A stretch of 64,000 nt of DNA from Roseicella sp. DB1501 (GTDB lineage Bacteria > Pseudomonadota > Alphaproteobacteria > Acetobacterales > Acetobacteraceae), in the NCBI RefSeq assembly GCF_013112485.1, contig NZ_JABFHG010000006.1, forward strand, positions 310,001 through 374,000. Direction: 5' to 3'. Shown here piece after piece: positions 11,398-21,657 of the stretch. Each line of letters begins with the position of its first letter. Within the stretch, counting starts at the first letter, position 1. A program made the position numbers and the translations under genes. The notes under the pieces were generated by a model, which saw only the letters and a list, made by a program, of their open reading frames with translations, ran no database searches and was not told where the DNA came from.

Positions 11398-13386
11398 TTG
11401 TGTCGGCCTGCATCCGACAGGGGGAACAGACTGGAACGCCGCCTTCGCCACCGCCTGCTGCGGGCGGCCCTGTCGGTCGCAGTGGCGATGCAGTCCGCCC
11501 CACCGGCCGTACCGCCGGCGGCGGCGCAGACGGTCACGCCGGGCGCCTTCCTCTCCCCCCCATCGCTCCCCTCCGCCCTGCCGGGCGGCCTGCCGCTGCC
11601 CAACCTGCCGCAGGCGACGCAGCAGGACATCCTGCAGCGGCTCCTCGATGCCGGCGCCGGCCGGCCGGTGACGGCGGCCATCCCCGCCCCGGCGATCCCA
11701 CTGGCCACGGCTATGCCAGTAGCGCCGGCACCACCGCCGGACGAGCCCGCCTCCCCCGCCGAGACCTTCTTCGCCGCGCGCGGCGTCGGCCAGGCCTGCC
11801 AGGCGGCGCCCTGCCCGGCCGCGCCGCTGCGGCAATTCGGCTATGACAGCCTGCGCGGCATGCCGGCGGGCCAGCCGATGGGCCTCGGCTTCGGCGCCCT
11901 GCCGGCCGACTACCTGCTCGGCCGCGACGACGAGGTGGTGCTCGCCTTCCGCGGCCGGGCGCGACAGACCATGAGCCTGCGCGTCGGACGCGACGGCATG
12001 CTGCTGGTGCCGGACCTCGCCCCGGTGCCGGCGGCGGGCCGGACGCTGCGCGAATTGCGCGCCGATCTCGAGGCGCGGTCGCTGCGCGAGCTGGGCGGGT
12101 CGGAGGTCTTCGTCTCGATCGGCCAGGTGCGGCAGATCGCCATCTTCGTCGGCGGCGAGGTGGCGCGGCCGGGGCTGCAGCCCCTCACCTCCATGGCCTC
12201 GGTGCTGGATGCGCTGGTCGCCGCCGGCGGCGTCCGCCGCACCGGCTCGCTGCGGGCCATCCGGATCGAGGGCGCCAACACCCGCCGGACCATCGACCTC
12301 TATCCGGTCATCGCCGGCGAGGGCACGCCGCCCGACCTGCGGCTGCAGGAGGGCGAGCGCATCCTGGTCCCGCCGCTCGGCGGGGTGGTGGCGATCAGCG
12401 GCGAGGTGACGCGGCCCGGCATCTACGAGCTTCCCGCCGGGCTCGGCCAGGCGCCGCTCGCCACGGTGCTGCGGCTGGCGGGCGAGCCGCTGCGGCCCTC
12501 CGGCAACCGCTTCCTGCTGCAGACCACCGATGCCGAGGGGCGGCGCAGCCTGCGCGAGATCGGGCCGCGCGACGCGCTGCGCCGCGGCGATTCGCTGCGG
12601 GTCGAGCCGGGCTCGGACGTCCTCGCCCAGGATCTGCGGCTGGCCGGCCATGTGGTGGCGCCGGTGCTGCGCTCCGCCGGCGGGCGGGCGCAGACCCTGC
12701 GCGGACTGCTCGCCGATCCCCGGCTGGTGCGGGCCGATCCCTATGCCCGGCTCGGCGTGATCTGGCGCACCGACCAGCGCAACCGGACGCGGCGCTTCCT
12801 CACCTTCGATCTCGGCCGCGTGCTGCAGGGCCAGGCCGACATGCCGCTCGCCGAGGGCGATGAGGTGATCCTGCTCGGCTTGGCGGACGTGCTCTTCCTC
12901 GCCAGCCCCGGCGTGCAGCAGGCGATCCGCGGCGATGCGCCGGATGCGGGCCAGGCGGTGCAGCCGGGCCAGCTCGCCGGCCCCGCGCCGGGCGTCGCGG
13001 CCGGCCCGATCGCCGGCCAGCCGCTGGCCGCCGCCTCCGGCATGCCGGGCGGGACGCTGGCCGGGGCGGGAGCGGCCAATCCGGCGGGCGCCGCGCCGCA
13101 GCCGGCGCCGGTGACCTGCGCCGCGCTGGTCCAGCTCGCCGTCGCGGCGCAATCCTCCTCCCAGCGCTTCGCGCATGCGCGGGCCGCCGGCTTCCCGGAT
13201 CTCGGCCTGCTGCCCTGCCCGCAGGTCTATCTCGACTATCCGACGCTGCTGCCCTTCCTGCTCGACCAGAGCGTGCTGCTGACCGGCGAGGTCCGGCAGC
13301 CCGGCCTCTACCCCATCCTCGACGACACTGGCCTCGACGCCGTGCTCGCGGCGGCCGGCGGCGCGACCGACACCGCCGACCTGGCC
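11398..13386 (+). pseudogene. Polysaccharide export protein (Wza/SLBB), 5' fragment, interrupted by transposon
   Basis: The first 663 codons of an outer-membrane polysaccharide export protein. A hydrophobic leader ending near AAAQ is followed by the Poly_export domain (DYLLGRDDEVVLAF onward, about residues 170-260) and several SLBB/beta-grasp modules (IFVGGEVARPGL, VAISGEVTRPGIYELP, VLLTGEVRQPGLYPI). At 13386 the frame runs into the transposon and stops at 13446, so the product would be 682 residues. The start is uncertain: TTG at 11398, or a CTG near 11434 behind AGGGGGA. The remaining 304 codons are at 20743-21657. Joining the halves restores one frame of about 967 residues. Confidence 0.9.
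13378..13385. repeat. Target-site duplication, left copy
   Basis: GACCTGGC abuts the left inverted repeat and is repeated exactly at 20734-20741 beyond the right inverted repeat. Eight bases is the duplication length known for the IS1595 family. The following C also matches, so the edge is ambiguous by one base. Confidence 0.85.
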
Positions 13387-13415
13387 GGCCTTGTGGATCA
13401 ACGACACCACACGGC
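13386..13415 (+). repeat. Left terminal inverted repeat of the transposon
   Basis: It begins CGGCCTTGTGGATCAACGAC and pairs with the reverse complement of 20704-20733, which begins CGGCTTTAGGTATCAACCAC. Twenty-three of 30 positions are identical, including the block ATCAAC and the block CACC-CACG. Confidence 0.85.
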
Positions 13416-13459
13416 TTTGGCATCGTCTTTTGGTTGGGGTTGGTGACGTGATGCGCGCG

Positions 13460-14239
13460 CTAGTTTTGGCTGGGCGGCGGATCGTCGGCAGGGCAGTCGT
13501 CATCCTCGCAGTTGTGGCTTCTGCATTCGTAGAAGTCGGCAGCGGGGCGGCGCGTGAAGTTGCGGTCGATGTAGTCGAGGTTCTGGAGCGTAGTGCAGAA
13601 CTCGATCCGGTGGGTTTGCTCGGGATTGAGCGTGTCGGCATAGCGGGCTCGGCCGAACACGGCGAACCCGCCCTTTTTGTATCGGCCATCGCGTATCTGC
13701 GTGAAACTGATCCACTGCGACAGGTTGATGCGGCAGGCGATGATGGCGAGACGTTCCTTCGGCGCCAGCCTGATCGCAATCTGGCCGTTCTGCGCCAGGA
13801 CGGTCTTGTTGAAGGGGTCGGCGGGCTCGTCGAGGAAGGGCGAGCATCCCATCGAGTAGACGAGGCGACGCGTGGCCGTGCCGCCGTCATTTATCAGCGG
13901 CACCCGAACAATGACCCGCTCATTTCCGTCCCCGGCGAGGTCCAAGACGAACTCGGGCCTGCCGGCTTGGACGGAGGCCGAGACGGTAGCCGCCAGGGCG
14001 TTGGAGCTGATCCTGTTGGCTTCTTCGGCGGCTTTCACCTGGTTGCGGGCTTCGGTGAGGCTGCTCATAGCCGCGTCGTAGGCCCACCAAGCGAACAGGG
14101 CGGCTGCACCAGTGGCAGCGGTTGCCAGGGAGGCCGTAACGCCGCTCGCCCACCAGTAGATATACTCTCGCTTCCTATGACGTTCCTCGCTGGCGTCCTT
14201 TGCCTTGGCGGCTTGGCGATCGCGGGCCTCACGTTTCAC
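13460..14239 (-). CDS. Cargo: membrane-anchored protein of unknown function
   Basis: A 259-residue protein with a charged N-terminus (MKREARDRQAAKAKDASEER), one membrane segment (about residues 29-52), a short predicted coiled coil (SSLTEARNQVKAAEEANRIS) and a C-terminal beta-rich domain (FVLDLAG, IVRVPLINDGGTATRR). The C-terminus is acidic with Cys residues. The start is a GTG at 14237-14239, chosen because it keeps the membrane segment; no strong Shine-Dalgarno is seen. Its layout parallels the larger cargo protein at 14478-15392. The family is not recognised. Confidence 0.65.
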   Translation of the reverse strand: MKREARDRQAAKAKDASEERHRKREYIYWWASGVTASLATAATGAAALFAWWAYDAAMSSLTEARNQVKAAEEANRISSNALAATVSASVQAGRPEFVLDLAGDGNERVIVRVPLINDGGTATRRLVYSMGCSPFLDEPADPFNKTVLAQNGQIAIRLAPKERLAIIACRINLSQWISFTQIRDGRYKKGGFAVFGRARYADTLNPEQTHRIEFCTTLQNLDYIDRNFTRRPAADFYECRSHNCEDDDCPADDPPPSQN

Positions 14240-14477
14240 TTCATAGGCCCTGTTTGGCTGGTGCTTTTGGGGTGGGTGATCGGCGTGAGTGGTGGCGCCG
14301 CGACGTTGGTGGGCATCATACCTCGATTAGCTGGAGCGGCTCCCATGTGAGCAGCGACCCGCCATGCAAACGAACACGCGGGCAACGGCCACGAGGGCAG
14401 GTGGCAATGGCCGCACGTCAATACGCCCTCCTTATGTGGCGCGACGGAATGGTATACGCTTGATTTGGAATCTTCTT

Positions 14478-15392
14478 CTAATCTGCCTCATTGCCTTCAG
14501 CGGACAAGGGCATGCTTCGCCCGGTCACGGGCGCAGAGTTGTTGATCGTCTCATGTCTGAAAATGACGTTTCGCTCGACGTCGAATACATCCCAATATTG
14601 AATTCTTCCAAAGCAATAAGTTTTTTGGAAATTCGAGCTAATGTTTTCAAGTTCAGTTTTGGTCAGCGTATCGTCTTTTTTACTTTCAATGGTAATCTTT
14701 GCGGTGGGCTGCAATGTCTGTCGAGGGCTTTCTTTTGTGTCGTTGACCAGAAAGTTGACTTCGTTGAATGCCAGCACCTCAATTTCCGTCCAAGCTGTGA
14801 GGCGTCGCGCTGGTGTCTGGCCAAAGTTCGTAATCTCGATTTCGACGGTCGGTTGCCTCCCTGCTACGACATTGTAGATTGTGATCCGCTCTATGCCGAC
14901 ATAGGCCCGAAGTTGCTTCTCGGCCGTACGATCTGCGGCTTGCACAGCCGCAGCAGCGGCGTCGGCGCTTCTACCAGCCTCTTTCACCGAGCGGCGGGTC
15001 AACAGGAGCGTCCAGAACAACGCGACGGTGCCTACGCCGGCAAGGACCGTCTGTACCCAAGCGATGTTGACCTGATCATTGGCCGCATCAGCAGCACGCT
15101 CTGCGGCAATAGCCGCCCGTTGCTGGGCCACGAGATCGTCGGCCTCATGTTGCTCGGTGCGCTGTGCGCGTTCTTCGGCGCGCTCGGCCTCTACAGGATC
15201 TTCGATGATCCGAACCGGGAGCGAAAGCGATCTGGCTGGCTGCTCGCTTTGGTGGGCATCCCGCTCACCTTCACGTTCTACGGGTGGGCGCGATTGGGTT
15301 TCCCCGGCTCGTTCTGGGGATTGTGCGGATGAGATTGGAGAGAGCGCCGCAGCAATAATGGCAACGGCCGTGGCGGTGGCGAGGCTCCGCAT
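14478..15392 (-). CDS. Cargo: membrane protein with coiled coil and Ig-like domain
   Basis: A 304-residue protein. It has a signal-like N-terminus (MRSLATATAVAIIAAALSPI), a long Glu/Arg/Ala coiled-coil region, a membrane segment near residues 108-130 and a second coiled coil (RRSVKEAGRSADAAAAAVQA). A beta-sandwich-like domain with RAYVGIERITIYNV and EIEITNFGQTPARRLTAWTE follows. That last domain recurs in many uncharacterised membrane proteins. Its ATG overlaps the stop of the DUF6471 gene (TGATG), which strongly supports the reading frame. Codon use is AT-richer in the 3' half. Function unknown. Confidence 0.75.
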   Translation of the reverse strand: MRSLATATAVAIIAAALSPISSAQSPERAGETQSRPPVEREGERDAHQSEQPARSLSLPVRIIEDPVEAERAEERAQRTEQHEADDLVAQQRAAIAAERAADAANDQVNIAWVQTVLAGVGTVALFWTLLLTRRSVKEAGRSADAAAAAVQAADRTAEKQLRAYVGIERITIYNVVAGRQPTVEIEITNFGQTPARRLTAWTEIEVLAFNEVNFLVNDTKESPRQTLQPTAKITIESKKDDTLTKTELENISSNFQKTYCFGRIQYWDVFDVERNVIFRHETINNSAPVTGRSMPLSAEGNEAD

Positions 15393-15664
15393 CAGTCCAG
15401 CCTCACCTCCTTCGCCCCCACTGCCACCATCACCTGCAACAAGAACACAGCGGTAAACCCGCCCCTGGCGATCTTGTTGCGGATATTCGGCTCGGTCTCC
15501 TTCACGCCGATGGCGGCCAGGCGCTCCACGAGCTGGGCATAGGTGACGTTCCGCCGCTTCAGCTCGGCCTTCAGCAGCCCCTTCGCCCGCGCCTGCCACT
15601 CGGCGGTGTCGGCCGTCTCCGTCTCTGCCAAATCCACATCCCTCACGATGGCGTATGCCATCAT
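15392..15664 (-). CDS. Cargo: DUF6471 protein
   Basis: A 90-residue protein whose core KGLLKAELKRRNVTYAQLVE, then RLAAIGVKETEPNIRNKIARG and FTAVFLLQVM, matches DUF6471, a small HTH-like domain of unknown role. I start it at the double ATG (15662-15664); an in-frame ATG lies at 15691. It is translationally coupled to the membrane protein gene downstream and divergent from the transposase, so it could be a small regulator of the cargo operon (inference). Confidence 0.75.
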   Translation of the reverse strand: MMAYAIVRDVDLAETETADTAEWQARAKGLLKAELKRRNVTYAQLVERLAAIGVKETEPNIRNKIARGGFTAVFLLQVMVAVGAKEVRLD

Positions 15665-15738
15665 ATCCGGTGCGTTTGTCGTTGTCAGCAAGGCGCATTG
15701 CCATCATAATCGGTGCATAGGCATTGGATACGATGGCA
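15657..15738. promoter_or_regulatory. Three copies of an 18-bp motif in the divergent spacer
   Basis: GCACCGGATATGATGGCA (minus strand, 15674-15657), GCACCGATTATGATGGCA (minus, 15717-15700) and GCATTGGATACGATGGCA (plus, 15721-15738) share a consensus and cover the start codons of the divergent DUF6471 and transposase genes. Two copies include TATGAT, a good -10 hexamer. They may be promoter elements or binding sites for a regulator controlling both genes. Confidence 0.5.
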
Positions 15739-16701
15739 ATGGCCCAACACTTCCTGCTTTCCGCCAAGGCCCGCACCCTCTCCCTCACGGCCATCTGCCG
15801 CATGAGCGACGACGAGGCGCACGCGGCCTTCGTGGCGATCCGGTGGGCTGCGACGGGTGGCGAGCCGGTTTGCCCGCGCTGCGGCTGCATGGCGGTCTAT
15901 GCCTACACGGTGCGCCGCATCTGGAAGTGCAAGGCGTGCAATCACCAGTTCTCGGTGACGAGCGGGACCATCTTCGCCAGCCGCAAGATGCCGATCCGCC
16001 AGTACCTCGTTGCCATCGCCATCTTCGTGAACGCGGCCAAGGGGCTGTCCGCCCTCCAGCTCGGCCGTGATCTGGACGTGCAATACAAGACCGCCTTCGT
16101 GCTGGCCCATAAGCTGCGCGAGGCCATCGGCTCGGGCCAGGCCGACACCACCCTCTCGGGTCATGTCGAGGTGGATGGCGCGTACTTCGGCGGCACGGTG
16201 CGGCAGGAGAACCGGAAGGAGGACCGCAAGGACCGCCGGCTGGCCGAGAACCAGACCGGCAAGCGCCAGGTCGTGGTGGTGATGCGTGAGCGCGGCGGCC
16301 GGACGCTGCCCTTCGTGTTCCGCTCGGAGGACCAAGCCATCCCGACGATCCGGGAGCGTGTTGCCCCTGGCAGCACCGTCTATGCCGACGAGGCCGGTTC
16401 CTGGGATGCGCTGCACGCCCGGTTCGAGACCAAGCGCATTAACCACCAACTCGCCTTCTCGGACGACGGCGCCTGCACGAACCAAGCGGAAAGCTACTTC
16501 TCCCGCCTGCGCCGGGCCGAGTGGGGCCAGCACCACCACATCAGCGGCAAGTACCTCGGCGCCTATGCCCGCGAGATGGCGTGGCGGGAGGATACCCGCC
16601 GCCGCTCGAACGGGACGCTGCACAGCCTCGCGGCGGCTGCGGCGCTCGGGCATCCGGTGTCGCGGGTGTGGGCCGGGTACTGGCAGCGCGGTCGGGCCTA
16701 G
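15733..16701 (+). CDS. IS1595-family transposase
   Basis: A 322-residue transposase. An N-terminal zinc-binding domain (CPRCGC, then WKCKAC followed by FSVTSGTIF) is typical of IS1595/IS1016-type enzymes. The ISXO2-like catalytic domain has VEVDGAYFGG (first Asp), VYADEAGSWD (second Asp) and TNQAESYFSRLRR (third acidic/Asn position). It would bind the terminal repeats and move the element. An in-frame TTG at 15724 would add three residues. The length is normal and no frameshift is visible, so it appears intact. Confidence 0.93.
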   Translation: MAMAQHFLLSAKARTLSLTAICRMSDDEAHAAFVAIRWAATGGEPVCPRCGCMAVYAYTVRRIWKCKACNHQFSVTSGTIFASRKMPIRQYLVAIAIFVNAAKGLSALQLGRDLDVQYKTAFVLAHKLREAIGSGQADTTLSGHVEVDGAYFGGTVRQENRKEDRKDRRLAENQTGKRQVVVVMRERGGRTLPFVFRSEDQAIPTIRERVAPGSTVYADEAGSWDALHARFETKRINHQLAFSDDGACTNQAESYFSRLRRAEWGQHHHISGKYLGAYAREMAWREDTRRRSNGTLHSLAAAAALGHPVSRVWAGYWQRGRA

Positions 16702-16852
16702 TCGCAGGAAGATTACCGGCCCACGACCTTAGCCATAGGATTCAATTGGGCGAATCAGGAAGCAACCCCTAATTGTGTCTCGACGCGACCCACACCCTGA
16801 CGGCGGCAGGCGGAGCCTAGCGCCGGGGCCAAGCCGGCCCTGAAAGGGGGTG

Positions 16853-16987
16853 ATGTTGTTGTCCAACAAGAAGATTCAGATCGGCCGGAGTGCAAAGTCC
16901 GGCCGGTTCATGACCGTGAAGGCCGCCACGGCGCGGAAAGCTACCGCGACCGTGGAGACCATCCGGAAGCCGAAGAAGGGCAAGTGA
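16853..16987 (+). CDS. Cargo: 44-residue basic small protein
   Basis: The frame reads MLLSNKKIQIGRSAKSGRFM, then TVKAATARKATATVETIRKP and KKGK. It has an excellent ribosome binding site (AAAGGGGG, 5 bases before ATG). It is strongly basic. The GRSAxSGRF and TVETIRKPKK pattern suggests a conserved small-protein family, but I cannot name a function. It lies 151 bp after the transposase gene on the same strand. Confidence 0.65.
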   Translation: MLLSNKKIQIGRSAKSGRFMTVKAATARKATATVETIRKPKKGK

Positions 16988-17086
16988 TCGTGCCGGTCAC
17001 CCCATCTTCGAACTAGGGCGGCGGGCGAAAGCCCGCCGCTCACCTTTCTGATTCTGACTTAGCCCTACTCTTGCGACAAGTGCGCT

Positions 17087-17329
17087 TTATCGCCCCGGTA
17101 TCCCCGGAAACGATCCGCCGTGCGGCTTGAGCCAGAACCGCTTCCGCTCGCCGGTAAGCGCCTCGGCCAGCTTGTCGATCGCATCCATCACCTCGCCGGC
17201 GGCCTTGTAAGCCGGGCCGCCGATCGGCGCCTCGGTTAGCACCTGCACGCAGAGCTTGCGGCACTCCCCGGCTGCCTCCATCGCGGCGTCGATGGTGGTA
17301 GGCGGGAGGATGCGGCGGGAGCGGGGCAT
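17087..17329 (-). CDS. Cargo: 80-residue hypothetical protein
   Basis: The frame from MPRSRRILPPTTIDAAMEAA to GIPGR is mainly helical with two Cys and no recognised domain. An upstream in-frame extension to 17449 exists but is less protein-like. There is no strong Shine-Dalgarno, so both start and reality are moderately uncertain. Confidence 0.45.
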   Translation of the reverse strand: MPRSRRILPPTTIDAAMEAAGECRKLCVQVLTEAPIGGPAYKAAGEVMDAIDKLAEALTGERKRFWLKPHGGSFPGIPGR

Positions 17330-17439
17330 GCCGTTAAGGCTGGCAGACCATCCGAACAAAGCAAGAACATTTTGCCCGTCCCGGTAAATGCTCGGCCACC
17401 TTCCCATGCGAGTTGATCCCGTCCGGCAGGGTAGATCCA

Positions 17440-17658
17440 ATGGCCTCAATAGCAGAACGCAAGTTCTTTGGTTACGTCAGGGTTGAGGTTGTATCGCATC
17501 ACCCAAGGCGATGGATTTGGTCCGTATGCCGAGACGACACTCACACCCCGGTCATGTCAGCTCAAACGCCCCTCTTCTGCGCCGAGAGTGCGTGGGAAGC
17601 CGGGAGGAACGCACTGGCAGCTTTGGAGAAGGGCGAGGCAGGCATAAAGGCGGCCTAG
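17440..17658 (+). CDS. Cargo: small protein, paralogue of the convergent 17693-17929 gene
   Basis: A 72-residue protein, MASIAERKFFGYVRVEVVSH onward. It shares FFGYVxVExV, WxWxVCRD, AWxAGRxxLxALExG with the convergent neighbour at 17693-17929. An N-terminal beta-hairpin and a C-terminal amphipathic helix are suggested. AGGG lies upstream of the ATG. The family is not recognised. Confidence 0.65.
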   Translation: MASIAERKFFGYVRVEVVSHHPRRWIWSVCRDDTHTPVMSAQTPLFCAESAWEAGRNALAALEKGEAGIKAA

Positions 17659-17692
17659 GTCGGCAGATGCCGGCCGCCCTACACACCTCCGG

Positions 17693-17929
17693 TTAGGCCG
17701 CTTGGCTAAGCTCGCTGGCCTGTTTGAGCGAAGCGCCCTGCTCCAACGCGCGCAGCACCTTCCGCCCGGCCTGCCAGGCATCGTCAGGGTGCCGGTATGC
17801 CCTGGTAGCGGTGATGATGGTCGTATCGCCCACATCTCGGCAAACGGTCCACGCCCATTGCCGCTGCTTGCGGGCGACGATCTCGACCTTCACGTATCCA
17901 AAAAACTGACACCGCGAGACCGCCGGCAT
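17693..17929 (-). CDS. Cargo: small protein, paralogue of 17440-17658
   Basis: A 78-residue protein starting MPAVSRCQFFGYVKVEIVAR. GAGAGGGA sits just before the ATG, a strong start signal. It aligns along its length with the 72-residue protein encoded tail to tail 34 bp away, with conserved FFGYV, WTVCRD, DAWQAGRKVLRALEQG. Two diverged copies facing each other indicate an old inverted duplication or a paired system such as homologous subunits. No function known. Confidence 0.7.
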   Translation of the reverse strand: MPAVSRCQFFGYVKVEIVARKQRQWAWTVCRDVGDTTIITATRAYRHPDDAWQAGRKVLRALEQGASLKQASELSQAA

Positions 17930-18133
17930 CTGCAATCCCTCTCGTTTATGATCCTTTGTCGTAATTAAGCTATAGATTATGTTTCGTAAAGGCAAAGTTC
18001 GCCTCTTGACACCTAGGCTACGCGCCGACGCCCGGCCCGCGTCGCTCGCGGCAACCTACCGCACACGAATCATTGCTATTACGAACCCTCATTTCCGTGA
18101 TACCCACACCCTGAGGTGGAAAACGGGGATAAA

Positions 18134-18379
18134 ATGAAGGTGTATTTAGACGAATTCGGCGAGAAGCGCCTGATCGGCCGAGCGGACGTGCCCGCCGATG
18201 TAGGGCCGGTTTTCACAGTGCCGCTGTTCGGCCCGAAGTCCATCATCACCGATGCCTACACGATCGGCACCGTGACCCGCTTCCCGTCCGGCGGCGCGCC
18301 CGTCGTCGAGCGCGCCGTGATCGTCTCGTCTGTCCAGTACCCCGAGTTTCTACCGGGGTGGCAGCCACTGGCCTCGTAG
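18134..18379 (+). CDS. Cargo: 81-residue hypothetical protein
   Basis: The frame MKVYLDEFGEKRLIGRADVP to WQPLAS starts at an ATG with ACGGGGAT upstream. It looks beta-rich and has no recognised domain. Its last 30 bases overlap the 3' end of the convergent receiver-domain gene (18350), which is unusual but possible. Confidence 0.55.
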   Translation: MKVYLDEFGEKRLIGRADVPADVGPVFTVPLFGPKSIITDAYTIGTVTRFPSGGAPVVERAVIVSSVQYPEFLPGWQPLAS

Positions 18380-18832
18380 CGCGATCGGACTTGTCGAGTT
18401 GGCGATGGGCTGGCGGGTGTTTCGCCGGTCCAGGGCCGGGAGTTCCCGCGCCGCTCGGTCCATCACGGCGCGCGCGACGTCTGGCAGCTCCGCATAGCCG
18501 AACGGCTTTTCCAGCCGCGCGATCGGGCCACCAAGGCCACGCAGGTCAGCCTGCGGCGCCTCCCCGGGAAAACCCGTGATGACGACGATCGGCAGAGCGG
18601 GGCGCATCTCCCGCAGAGCGCGGATGACCCGTTGCCCCGCCAGGCTGCCGTTCAGCCAAAGCTCCACGATCGCCACGTCGATCGGCGCCATGGATGCGCG
18701 GTGCAGCGCCTCGGCCTCGCCGGCCGCATAGAGGGTGTCGAAGCCAGCCTCACTTAGGAGATCGCCGGCCATCAGGCCGAGCAGAGCTTCATCATCAACG
18801 ACCAACGCAAGCGGACGTGCGGCCTGGCTCAT
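18350..18832 (-). CDS. Cargo: orphan response-regulator receiver domain, Asp-to-Glu variant
   Basis: A 160-residue protein made almost only of a CheY-like receiver domain. The acidic pair D13-D14, T86 and K109 are in place, but the phospho-acceptor position is E57 (AIVELWLNG) where receivers have Asp. Glu often mimics phospho-Asp, so it may be locked active or act as a phosphorylation-independent partner (inference). There is no output domain; the C-terminal 45 residues are Arg/Pro-rich. The ATG at 18832 is used; a TTG lies 9 bases upstream. No histidine kinase is in the window. Confidence 0.8.
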   Translation of the reverse strand: MSQAARPLALVVDDEALLGLMAGDLLSEAGFDTLYAAGEAEALHRASMAPIDVAIVELWLNGSLAGQRVIRALREMRPALPIVVITGFPGEAPQADLRGLGGPIARLEKPFGYAELPDVARAVMDRAARELPALDRRNTRQPIANSTSPIALRGQWLPPR

Positions 18833-18844
18833 GACATGCAACCT

Positions 18845-19179
18845 AATTAGTGCTTAATCACAATGATATCATGATGTTCTCGAAACGCAATTGGTTGATG
18901 CGGCATGGATGCGGCGAGCCTAGGGCTGCGATGCCACCGCTTCCTAGGGCGTGGTTGGCATGAGGCATCACCAGGCCACCGTATCTGGAAAAACGCCTTG
19001 ATCGGACCTGGGTCTGCCAAAAACGAGTCCTATCAATGGCTTACAAGCCATTGAAATTGCTTCCAGAATTCGCTATACATTCTCAGGTGGGCGTCTCCGG
19101 AGCCACCCGCGTTGCCCGCTAGGGCAGCACCTGAACTGACGGTTGCCCCCATGAGGTAACCTACCAAGCGGTTTGGGCT
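18845..19179. other. Gap inside the transposon with a 20-bp palindrome
   Basis: No supported gene. The left part (18841-18900) is AT-rich and probably carries the promoter for the leftward receiver-domain gene. At 19034-19053, CAATGGCTT and AAGCCATTG form a perfect inverted repeat around two bases, an operator-like or recombination-site-like structure. Confidence 0.5.
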
Positions 19180-20070
19180 TTAAGGGGCCGGGATGCCCGC
19201 CGCCTTTCTCGGGCGTTGGGCACCGTAAAACTCAAAGATGGAGCGCTGTTCGTCGCTGATGCGGTGAAGCCCATCTACTGGCCACAGGAACACACCACGT
19301 CCGAAGTGCTTGCCGTTTGGACCTTCGGCGATGCGGGGCTTAAGCACTTGTGCGTATGACGGTCGGCCTACCCTCACCTGTTGTCCGATTATGGGCGTCT
19401 CTGGCAACGCTTGATAGAAGGCACTAGCAACGACATCCGCAAGCTGAAGTCCCGGCCGGTTTGCATGTGGGAAGCTTACGATTTGAGAGAGATCCACCAT
19501 ATCCCAGGCAAGATCGCCAGCTTTCAGATGTAGGCGGTTGTTGGCGCTTTGGAGTTGAATGCGGGCGAGGTAATCCAAGGTCCGCGAGTAGCGATGCCCA
19601 CCGCGAGTTGAGAACTCGACCCGAACCGTTCTTGGTTCACCATACTTCCGCATGGCATGCCCACGGCAATATTTTGTAACCTGTTCCAAGAGCAGACGCG
19701 CCATCCAGTTATAAAACCAATTTTGCTTGGCAATTCGTTCTGCGCGCTCGTTGCGATAGCCTCGAAGGCTTGGCTTATGCGAAATCCCAACAAAGTAACG
19801 GGCGGGCAAGCCGGACATGAAATCGGAAACCGCTTGCCGTCTTTCCGGGGAAAGCTCGGCAAAATGCAAGTCTTTCCGTTGCTTTGCTCGCATATCAGTT
19901 AAAATACGGCTAAGCCACTCTCGAGGCTGAGAGTTAACCTGCGCCTCCACTACGAAGGCACCAATGGTGAACCATTCGGTTCCACCGACCGGATCGAGGG
20001 GACGCACGCGCTTTACGCCATCGTCTCCCGCTTCATCGATATATGCCACATACCCAACTGGAGGTGCCAT
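19180..20070 (-). CDS. Cargo: DUF3800 domain protein
   Basis: A 296-residue protein with the DUF3800 hallmarks: N-terminal GYVAYIDEAGDDG (acidic pair at about residues 11-12), a central HFAELSPERRQ segment, and PGLQLADVVASAFYQ near residue 225. DUF3800 is predicted to have an RNase H-like fold with conserved acidic residues and often occurs in mobile and defence-associated regions; biochemical function is unproven. The start at 20070 (MAPPVGYVAYIDEAG) is preferred over the 37-residue longer frame. Confidence 0.8.
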   Translation of the reverse strand: MAPPVGYVAYIDEAGDDGVKRVRPLDPVGGTEWFTIGAFVVEAQVNSQPREWLSRILTDMRAKQRKDLHFAELSPERRQAVSDFMSGLPARYFVGISHKPSLRGYRNERAERIAKQNWFYNWMARLLLEQVTKYCRGHAMRKYGEPRTVRVEFSTRGGHRYSRTLDYLARIQLQSANNRLHLKAGDLAWDMVDLSQIVSFPHANRPGLQLADVVASAFYQALPETPIIGQQVRVGRPSYAQVLKPRIAEGPNGKHFGRGVFLWPVDGLHRISDEQRSIFEFYGAQRPRKAAGIPAP

Positions 20071-20212
20071 CGAATGGATCGTAGGCGCGAGGCGTCCAAG
20101 CCGGAAAGTGCATCCCGGATGGAACGCTTCCAACGACGCCTCCTGCGACCTTGGCCGTGACGAGAACGAAGCGCGGTTCAATGAGAAGCCGACGTGCAGC
20201 AGTTTCTGGCAC

Positions 20213-20644
20213 CTACTCCGCCACCTCCCACAGCCTCGCCCGCCCCTGCTTGCCGTTCTGCCGGATCACGCCTCGGTCCCGCTGATGCCGAATAGCCCTG
20301 CCGATGCTCTCCACCACCGCCGACCGCAACGCCGGGCTGGCCGCGTCCAGCGCCCGTTCCTCCATCACCTGATCCGCCAGGGCCGCAATCGTCATCGGCC
20401 CGCCGGCCTCGCGCAGCATCCCCAGCACCGACCGGCTCATGTCCTTCAGCACGCCCAGCATCGGCGAGCGCGCCTGCCGCATCTGGATATCGTCCACCGG
20501 ATAGGCCGGGTCCAACTGCCGGATCACCGCGTCCACCGCCGCCAAGTCGGCATAGAGCCGGTCCAGCCGTGCCCGCGCCGTCTCCAGCTCGCCGGCCAGC
20601 ATCGCCCGGCGCTCCACCAGGCCGGGTAGGACGAACTCGTTCAT
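20213..20644 (-). CDS. Cargo: coiled-coil protein with C-terminal winged-helix-like region
   Basis: A 143-residue protein. Residues 8-45 form a probable coiled coil (VERRAMLAGELETARARLDR). The C-terminal half (GMLREAGGPMTIAALADQVM then IRHQRDRGVIRQNGKQGRAR) has the helix-turn-helix plus wing pattern of winged-helix DNA-binding domains. It could regulate the element (inference). Its Shine-Dalgarno lies inside a hairpin (20651-20671). Confidence 0.6.
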   Translation of the reverse strand: MNEFVLPGLVERRAMLAGELETARARLDRLYADLAAVDAVIRQLDPAYPVDDIQMRQARSPMLGVLKDMSRSVLGMLREAGGPMTIAALADQVMEERALDAASPALRSAVVESIGRAIRHQRDRGVIRQNGKQGRARLWEVAE

Positions 20645-20650
20645 CGTAGG

Positions 20651-20671
20651 CGCTCCCGCAAAACGGGAGCG
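20651..20671 (-). promoter_or_regulatory. Hairpin covering a ribosome binding site
   Basis: CGCTCCCG and CGGGAGCG form a perfect 8-bp stem with a 5-base A-rich loop. On the minus strand the 3' arm carries GGGAG, which ends about 8 bases before the ATG of the 143-residue gene at 20644. The structure could mask the ribosome binding site in the mRNA; it could also be a transcription terminator-like or operator structure. Confidence 0.45.
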
Positions 20672-20703
20672 ATTATAAGGGGTTAGCGGCCAATCCGCCC
20701 GAG

Positions 20704-20733
20704 GGCGTGAGGTGTGGTTGATACCTAAAGCCG
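20704..20733 (-). repeat. Right terminal inverted repeat of the transposon
   Basis: Read on the minus strand it begins CGGCTTTAGGTATCAACCAC and matches the left repeat at 13386-13415 in 23 of 30 positions. Confidence 0.85.
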
Positions 20734-20741
20734 GACCTGGC
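20734..20741. repeat. Target-site duplication, right copy
   Basis: GACCTGGC is identical to 13378-13385 and lies directly outside the right terminal repeat. Confidence 0.85.
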
Positions 20742-21657
20742 CTCGGTCGAGCTGGCGCGGGAGCCGGCCGAGCAGGCCGCCACCCTGCCGCTCTCGCGCA
20801 CCCTCATCGACCTGCGCTCGCGCAATTTCGCCGCCGTTCGCCTCTCGCCGCGCGACGCGGTGCGGCTGCCGCGCGGCTTCGGCGACCGCGATACGGGGCC
20901 GGTGACGCTGGTCGGGGAGTTCGTCCGCCCCGGCGTCTACGACATCCGCCGTGGCGAGCGGCTGTCCGAGGTCATCGCCCGGGCCGGCGGGCTGACCGCC
21001 CAGGCCTATCCCTACGGCGCCGTCTTCAGCCGCGAGAGCGTCCGCCAGCGCCAGCAGGAGGGATTCCAGCGCACCGCCCGCGAGCTCGAGCAGGGGTTGA
21101 TGCAGGTCGCCGCCGGCCAGGCCGTCGCCGGGATGCGCGGCTCGACCGACCTCTCCGGCGCGATCCAGGCGGGCCAGGCCCTGGCGACCTCGCTGCGGCA
21201 GACGCGCGCGGCCGGGCGGATGGTGGTGGAGGCGAATCCCGTCGTCCTGGCCGGCCGTCCCGACCTCGACGTGCTGATGGAGCCGGGCGACCTGGTGGCG
21301 ATGCCGAAGCGGCCGAACGAGGTGACGGTGGTCGGCGCGGTGCTGAACCCGGGCAGCCTGCAATTCGCCACGGGCTGGAAGGCCGGCGACTATGTCCGCG
21401 GCGCGGGCGGCGAGCAGCGCTTCGCCGATGGCGACCGCGCCTTCGTCGTGCTGCCGAACGGCCAGTCCGCCCCGGCGGGGCTGGGCGGCTGGCTGTCGGG
21501 CGGGCCGCCGATCCCGCCCGGCAGCACGGTGGTGGTGCCGCAGGACCCCTCCCCCTACGAGACCTGGGGATTCCTGCGGGACGTGACGCAGGTGCTGTCG
21601 CAGGTGGCGCTGTCCTCGGCGGCGCTGGCGGTGATCGTCCGGTCGGGATCGAAATAG
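20734..21657 (+). pseudogene. Polysaccharide export protein (Wza/SLBB), 3' fragment
   Basis: The continuation of the gene starting at 11398. After the target duplication the frame reads ASVELAREPAEQAA and runs to a TAG at 21657 (304 codons from 20743). It holds two more SLBB-type modules (VTLVGEFVRPGVYDIRRGE; EVTVVGAVLNPGSLQFATGW) and ends with a hydrophobic C-terminal segment (VALSSAALAVIVRSGSK). An internal ATG at 20860 could start a fragment, but it has no clear ribosome binding site and would not be a functional exporter. Confidence 0.9.

Follow-up and report, generated by a model that had tools for sequence, protein, structure and literature searches.

Does a transposable element lie where it does by accident, or was it led there by something that it carries itself? 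The question is raised by a locus of Roseicella sp. DB1501 (Acetobacteraceae), in a 64,000-nucleotide stretch of contig NZ_JABFHG010000006.1 (positions 310,001 to 374,000, here called the window), where an element of 7,348 bp belonging to the IS1595 family splits a gene that carries SLBB and Poly_export domains by family models. We report that insertion in the clade of this element is site-selective, and that the class of target follows a small second core gene, here named CL1. It is likely, in our judgement, that the element is a site-selective cargo transposon built on an IS1595-family chassis, in which CL1 directs insertion to a fixed base.

An earlier note on this DNA had described an IS1595-family element with cargo that disrupts the export gene, and this description is supported. 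The terminal ends agree, as it had said, at 23/30 positions (19/25 over the first 25), the 8-bp target duplication GACCTGGC is exact, and fusing the two flanks across a single duplication copy restores a reading frame that is open for 967 codons. The transposase inside matches the Pfam models PF12762 (DDE_Tnp_IS1595, E 2.6e-43) and PF12760 (Zn_ribbon_IS1595, E 1.3e-14) as well as the NCBIfam IS1595 model NF033547 (155 bits, cut-off 75), and GC content is about 0.72-0.80 outside the element versus 0.51-0.70 inside. The ends and the duplication alone are weak evidence, not beyond chance; this GC-rich window holds 92,661 identical 8-mer pairs lying 0.7-15 kb apart, and one other pair also reaches 19/25. 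We accepted the insertion because of the open frame, the transposase inside and the orthologous loci, and not because of the ends alone. A chance match of the ends was rejected, since the orthologous loci settle the point (26/30 are uninterrupted and four are filled at the same base), and the insertion is confirmed as real. Both checks proposed in the earlier note were positive: empty sites were found in sister genomes (three of the same genus, and the 26 loci just mentioned), and related ends surround different cargo across the delimited elements.

Recurrent target sites of the clade

A scan of genome contigs gave 80 loci. Elements were delimited by an exact 8-bp duplication together with at least 17/25 matching end positions, and the resulting 65 comprise 57 of the 80 scan loci, seven loci of other genomes chosen for visible ends, and the window element. 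They span 1,596-7,348 bp, and all 65 contain a transposase gene and a CL1 gene. CL1 starts 16-95 bp from the right end in 59/65 (67-70 bp in 30/65); of the remaining six copies, three are encoded on the opposite strand and three begin at a distance of 216-935 bp. CL1 lies to the right of the transposase in 75/80 loci, and two of the other five are cut off by a contig edge within 1 kb. When 289 genomes of the class were searched with a CL1 profile, 20 places were found; among the 19 outside the window element, a transposase lies no more than about 2 kb away in 11, the contig ends on that side in four, one copy is full-length without a transposase (L160) and three are weak partial matches.

The rebuilt empty sites revealed recurrent targets. 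Two positions in comM, separated by 192 bp, account for 26 of the 65 elements: 14 are at site A (GAATTC-type), within the Walker B motif FLDELPEF, and 12 at site B (GARGCGCT-type), within EALEVSM. A further element, L109, alone at comM codon 13, was excluded, so that 27 are located in comM and 26 counted. The junction was displayed for 24/26, all of which break at the same base of their site, and the placement of L092 and L114, with no junction displayed, rests on tblastn position. Both orientations occur, 8/6 at site A and 7/5 at site B, and the CL1 tree requires 10 or more switches between them. The 8-bp sequence alone was rejected as the target: at site A it reads GAATTCCA, GAATTTCA, GAGTTTTC and others at one codon.

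More specifically, strict target classes were built for the 65 elements and 19 further right ends from flanks whose alignment extends away from the junction along a single diagonal. Eight junction-anchored classes were obtained: comM-A (17, one of them a duplicate record), comM-B (13), two glycosyltransferase sites, GGTSNHF (4) and ALDYP (2), and the tRNA-Gln 3' end, gene K, the mnmE 3' end and the export gene (3 each). Target gene names are our reading of the translations, the export gene alone being named by family models; ARAGORN finds a tRNA-Gln in L082, L085 and L149 and not in L083. The same base was hit in independent events, and insertion is site-selective.

A second element end with CL1 in the window's own genome (L147, on contig C5, with its junction near 812) is at the gene-K site, where it shares its diagonal with L050 and L053. 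L053 has nested left ends (5061 and 8169) with a shared right end (12871) and the same AAGATATC duplication, an arrangement that looks like two tandem elements at one home site.

CL1 and the choice of target

The tests of which gene tracks the target used the 79 of 83 CL1 rows that have a transposase row; L152 and L157 dropped out, and the duplicates L150 (= L097) and L156 (= L072) were removed. In the 46 rows that belong to a target class of at least two, the nearest neighbour has the same target in 34/46 by CL1 and in 22/46 by transposase (shuffle maximum 15 each), and in the 60 rows with the regulator DUF6471 the corresponding values are 33/37 for CL1, 19/37 for transposase and 12/37 for regulator. 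The partial Mantel value is 0.43 for CL1 given transposase (0 of 999) and -0.02 for transposase given CL1. Fitch counts of target changes on FastTree trees are 7 on CL1, which is the minimum, 17 on transposase and 16 on the regulator. In the approximately unbiased (AU) test, comM-A as one clade is rejected by the transposase (p 0.00018) and not by CL1 (p 0.72), and on quick treekit trees the distinction between comM-A and comM-B takes 5 changes on the transposase. Any 40-residue window of CL1 finds a same-target neighbour in 33-36/46, versus 10-20/46 for windows of the transposase; element-end DNA does so in 6-11/42, right-end DNA in at most 11/42, and on identical rows the left-slot cargo family CL3 scores 2/8 versus 5/8 for CL1. 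Statistically, target class follows CL1 rather than transposase or regulator, a strong correlation with exceptions.

A partly independent check was made on loci outside the first 35 labelled, with a readable right end and a CL1 of 50% or more identity to one already labelled. Here 7/10 are at the predicted site (L045, L057, L080, L147, L149, L210 and L212). Two of these seven count for less: the prediction for L149 came from later, junction-anchored labels, and for L147 the closest CL1 belongs to a singleton, L049, gene K coming second, and the comparison with gene K was made after the likeness had been noticed. L152, with a CL1 identity of 42% and thus below the 50% criterion, is also at its predicted site. 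The check left out L048 and L151 (right end unreadable), L164 (weak partial) and the duplicates L150, L211 and L213.

Several observations weigh against CL1 as the selector. No partner site is found for 33/79 rows, and the other three loci of the check (L061, L146 and L148) are not where their CL1 predicts. L113 has a CL1 97% identical to that of L117 (comM-B) yet is located elsewhere; the CL1 of L031, an element at site K, shares only 22% identity with that of its nearest class-mate; L030 and L043 differ in their duplications despite identical CL1; and five copies of 1.6 kb have CL1 and no common site. The quick CL1 tree needs 2 changes, not 1, between comM-A and comM-B. In a Foldseek search the best matches of the CL1 model are mostly winged-helix proteins, none of them below E 0.001. 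Moreover, linkage to the target is a real confounder, because CL1 is the gene nearest the flank.

This last point leads to a rival explanation, in which the site is chosen by the transposase or by something that travels with CL1 (right-end DNA, for example), and CL1 itself acts as a cofactor or regulator merely linked to the target. CL1 at the element edge would indeed stay with its flank under internal recombination, the five compact copies would suit such a role, and transposase neighbours do share targets above the shuffles. We nevertheless consider this explanation unlikely: the transposase adds nothing once CL1 is given, none of its 40-residue windows exceeds 20/46, right-end DNA performs poorly, and orientation has changed several times at one site, which implies repeated insertion and hence a broken link to the flank.

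In the mechanism that we propose, with CL1 itself rather than a linked feature choosing the site, the zinc-ribbon DDE transposase would act at the ends of about 25 bp and make the 8-bp duplications, and CL1 (about 145 aa, at the right end) would recognise a conserved host sequence and place the insertion at a fixed base within or next to it. Exchange of CL1 between elements would give each CL1 lineage its own home; the proposed homes are the export gene, the comM Walker B motif, comM EALEVSM, the mnmE 3' end, the tRNA-Gln 3' end, the two glycosyltransferase sites and gene K. A divergent repressor, here the Xre-like DUF6471 and elsewhere a genuine Xre protein, would sit on repeated operators over the transposase promoter. 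The structural model of CL1 (mean pLDDT 90, pTM 0.58) places a winged helix after a long helix (5-44), and comparison of the CL1 profile with solved structures gave coiled-coil matches, none below E 0.006; from the model, CL1 may bind DNA as a dimer, marking the target and bringing in the transposase. By analogy, CL1 is probably a target selector working like TnsD or TnsF, and a second, less specific pathway, as in Tn7, would fit the exceptions. On balance we incline to the broader view that CL1 is a new family of exchangeable protein target selectors unrelated to Tn7, through which simple IS1595-family transposons home to a handful of conserved chromosomal sites.

It is very improbable that we are dealing with an ordinary IS1595-family cargo transposon of near-random insertion whose hit in the export gene was incidental, which was how the earlier note read it; site-selective insertion and the second core gene lay beyond its reach. 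The rows without a shared site would agree with near-random insertion, and IS1595 elements with passenger genes are already in print (in the accessible part of PMC11891212), but four species at one export-gene base and 26/65 elements at two comM bases contradict it.

The export-gene site itself was followed in relatives. Its 3' part is matched in 109/397 genomes of the family, and the junction was read in the best-scoring 30 loci of these 109 genomes. The 4/30 filled loci, each showing an element end and then GACCT.. at the same base, are those of the window, Roseicella aerolata (G001, L045; the identification is supported by a 119-base identity of L169 with L045), Belnapia arida (G274, L046) and B. 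moabensis (G297, L047). The four species break at the identical base, with GACCTGGC or GACCTCTC adjoining the element, which in G001 is scattered over several contigs. The transposase runs in the direction of the gene in the window and B. moabensis and is reversed in B. arida and R. aerolata. Two regions of the window's element can be aligned with the other three: some 1.3 kb comprising regulator and transposase (84-85%), and the region of CL1 and the right end. The other cargo of these three gives no alignment to the window cargo. In G002, G003 and G004, of the same genus, the gene is uninterrupted at the insertion point, and G002 shares 98.7% identity with the window across the 3' part. Because the base is the same, both orientations occur, the cargo does not align and genomes of the same genus are empty, insertion at this base probably occurred more than once. 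A single old insertion inherited by four species, with later inversion and cargo change, would suit four species of one family whose transposases are 88-89% identical to that of the window, yet it is scarcely credible in view of the empty same-genus genomes, the two orientations and unrelated cargo of the filled sites, and the recurrence of this pattern in other orders, at loci unrelated to this one.

Some matches beyond the 30 loci read (e.g., G661, G286 and G592) have short open frames, which may be contig ends or insertions. L048 (Roseomonas nepalensis) is closely related (transposase 87%) and its CL1 shows 79% identity to the export-gene class, but it has no readable right end and no export-gene flank.

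Gene content and regulation

The features of the window element are collected in Table 1. The earlier note counted some eleven genes, a figure that is reached only when small open reading frames (ORFs) are included; family or cross-element support exists for seven products, namely two of CL3 type, DUF6471, the transposase, the response-regulator receiver, DUF3800 and CL1. It also called the load large for the family: the window copy is indeed the longest of the 65, but cargo is the norm in the clade (60/65 elements exceed 2.3 kb).

Table 1. Features of the window element and its flanks (positions in the window).
Feature	Position	Strand	Basis
Export gene, 5' part	11398..13385	+	SLBB, Poly_export domains
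Left target duplication copy, GACCTGGC	13378..13385		Sequence
Left terminal inverted repeat, 23/30 vs right end	13386..13415		Sequence
Cargo, 259 aa, weak CL3 relative	13460..14239	-	CL3 profile E 4e-13, filters off
Cargo, 308 aa, CL3 family	14478..15404	-	CL3 profile E 4e-51
DUF6471, predicted Xre-like helix-turn-helix (HTH) protein, divergent to transposase	15392..15691	-	PF20075 E 9.7e-31, model, fold search; exact start uncertain
Putative operators	15656..15738		Direct copies 15656-15673 and 15699-15716; inverted arm ~15720-15737; end at transposase start
IS1595-family transposase, zinc ribbon and DDE	15739..16701	+	Pfam, NCBIfam
Cargo, response-regulator receiver protein	18350..18841	-	PF00072 above cut-off
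Cargo, DUF3800 protein	19180..20181	-	PF12686 above cut-off
CL1, ~143 aa, coiled-coil/winged-helix, proposed target selector	20213..20644	-	Starts 89 bp from right end; model pLDDT 90
Right terminal inverted repeat	20704..20733		Sequence
Right target duplication copy, GACCTGGC	20734..20741		Sequence
Export gene, 3' part	20742..21657	+	SLBB domain; frame continues from 13385

Cargo occupies two slots, one to the left of the regulator and one between transposase and CL1. The CL3 family is present in 20/65 elements, the window copy falling outside the cluster at the cut-off used. Five compact relatives of 1.6 kb (L026, L030, L032, L034 and L043) consist of transposase and CL1 only, and some genomes (G145, G018) hold several such copies. 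A cargo scan of 124 ORFs from 57 related elements (L045-L124, the window excluded) gave matches to the BstA model (5), SocA/Panacea antitoxin (5) and Fic (2), as well as a DNA methylase and a CapP-model match, and genes for phage defence or of a toxin-antitoxin-like kind may therefore also belong to the cargo of the clade. For the window cargo itself a defence system was rejected, the sole match among 10 proteins being ZorC for CL1 at E 0.0046, which we take as chance. A pattern search for further element ends in the window genome (G000) found none beyond the window's own right end. More transposase or CL1 pieces lie on contigs C3, C9, C32, C44:93695 and C25 (L148) of this genome; the extra transposases are 31-78% identical, and some pieces are broken or at contig ends.

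DUF6471 is divergent to the transposase in 48/65 elements and an Xre protein is found in 8/65; over the 80 loci, DUF6471 occurs in 66, Xre in 12 and neither in 3. The DUF6471 model is a four-helix HTH whose best Foldseek matches, none better than E 0.3, are Xre-type proteins, among them C.BclI and HipB. Between regulator and transposase, one 8-mer recurs in 25/66 DUF6471-type regions versus a shuffle maximum of 5, and the 12 Xre-type regions have a different palindrome, CAACG..CGTTG, read by eye. These repeated motifs suggest repressor-operator pairs that change together. In Xre-type loci, for example L049, L053, L064-L066, L070, L094 and L120, the regulator and operator type switch jointly and the transposase family stays constant. 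Residues D151, D222 and E256 of the transposase, invariant in 79/79 rows, are probably the DDE residues, and because they are intact in the window this copy may be active, although its left end is more diverged than most.

Comparison with known transposition systems

A transposase with an N-terminal zinc ribbon, an 8-bp duplication and inverted repeats are all present in the window element, as in members of the IS1595 family. Within this family, the ISNha5 group has CGGnnTT ends and multi-kilobase length. The earlier note held that such a cargo-bearing element looked undescribed, which holds only in part, as the accessible part of PMC11891212 describes ISNha5, an insertion sequence (IS) belonging to the IS1595 family, as carrying passenger genes, citing Siguier 2009; in the excerpts available, cargo in this family is known under the term 'transporter IS'. 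According to an excerpt of PMC8101967, the family usually has 8-bp duplications and a single transposase gene. The elements described here resemble ISNha5 and IS1595, as far as these excerpts go, in the zinc-ribbon IS1595-type transposase, the 8-bp duplications and the passenger genes that include a transcription regulator. They differ from the family as published there in having CL1 as a second core gene in 65/65 delimited elements and in site-selective insertion; since the excerpt says 'usually', the second gene is a difference and not an exclusion.

The comM Walker B motif is also the target of TnsF of Tn6022 and of the element Tsy, in the available text of PMC10293859. With these elements our clade shares, by the same text, this target, exchangeable target selectors and cargo. 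Their transposition proteins are different, as Tn6022 and Tsy use TnsB/TnsC/TniQ or tyrosine recombinases, and so are the selectors: TnsF has 498 aa with an inactivated tyrosine-recombinase domain (accessible part of PMC10293859), whereas CL1 has about 145 aa and is predicted to be a winged-helix protein. If our reading is true, unrelated mobile lineages (Tn6022, Tsy and IS1595 elements) reached the comM Walker B motif independently.

Site-selective IS1595 elements were not found in titles and abstract starts of the open-access literature, among the matches listed, and an earlier description is possible; a literature search likewise returned no description of a small DNA-binding targeting protein like CL1, and none of DUF6471. 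Among transposition systems guided to specific sites by proteins, the best known are the Tn7 relatives, which need several proteins. Models of TnsA/B/C or TniQ/TnsD had no match among the 11 window proteins scanned with Pfam. Like Tn7 with TnsD, as described in the excerpts available, the elements are proposed to home to conserved chromosomal sequences under protein guidance, but unlike Tn7/TnsD two of their homes, the export gene and comM, are disrupted and not spared. The window element is filed in the IS1595 family; it probably functions like a Tn7-type element and is not one. If the proposed role of CL1 is true, a protein of about 145 aa is sufficient to aim a one-transposase element, and, this protein being exchangeable, the system is much simpler than that of the Tn7 relatives.

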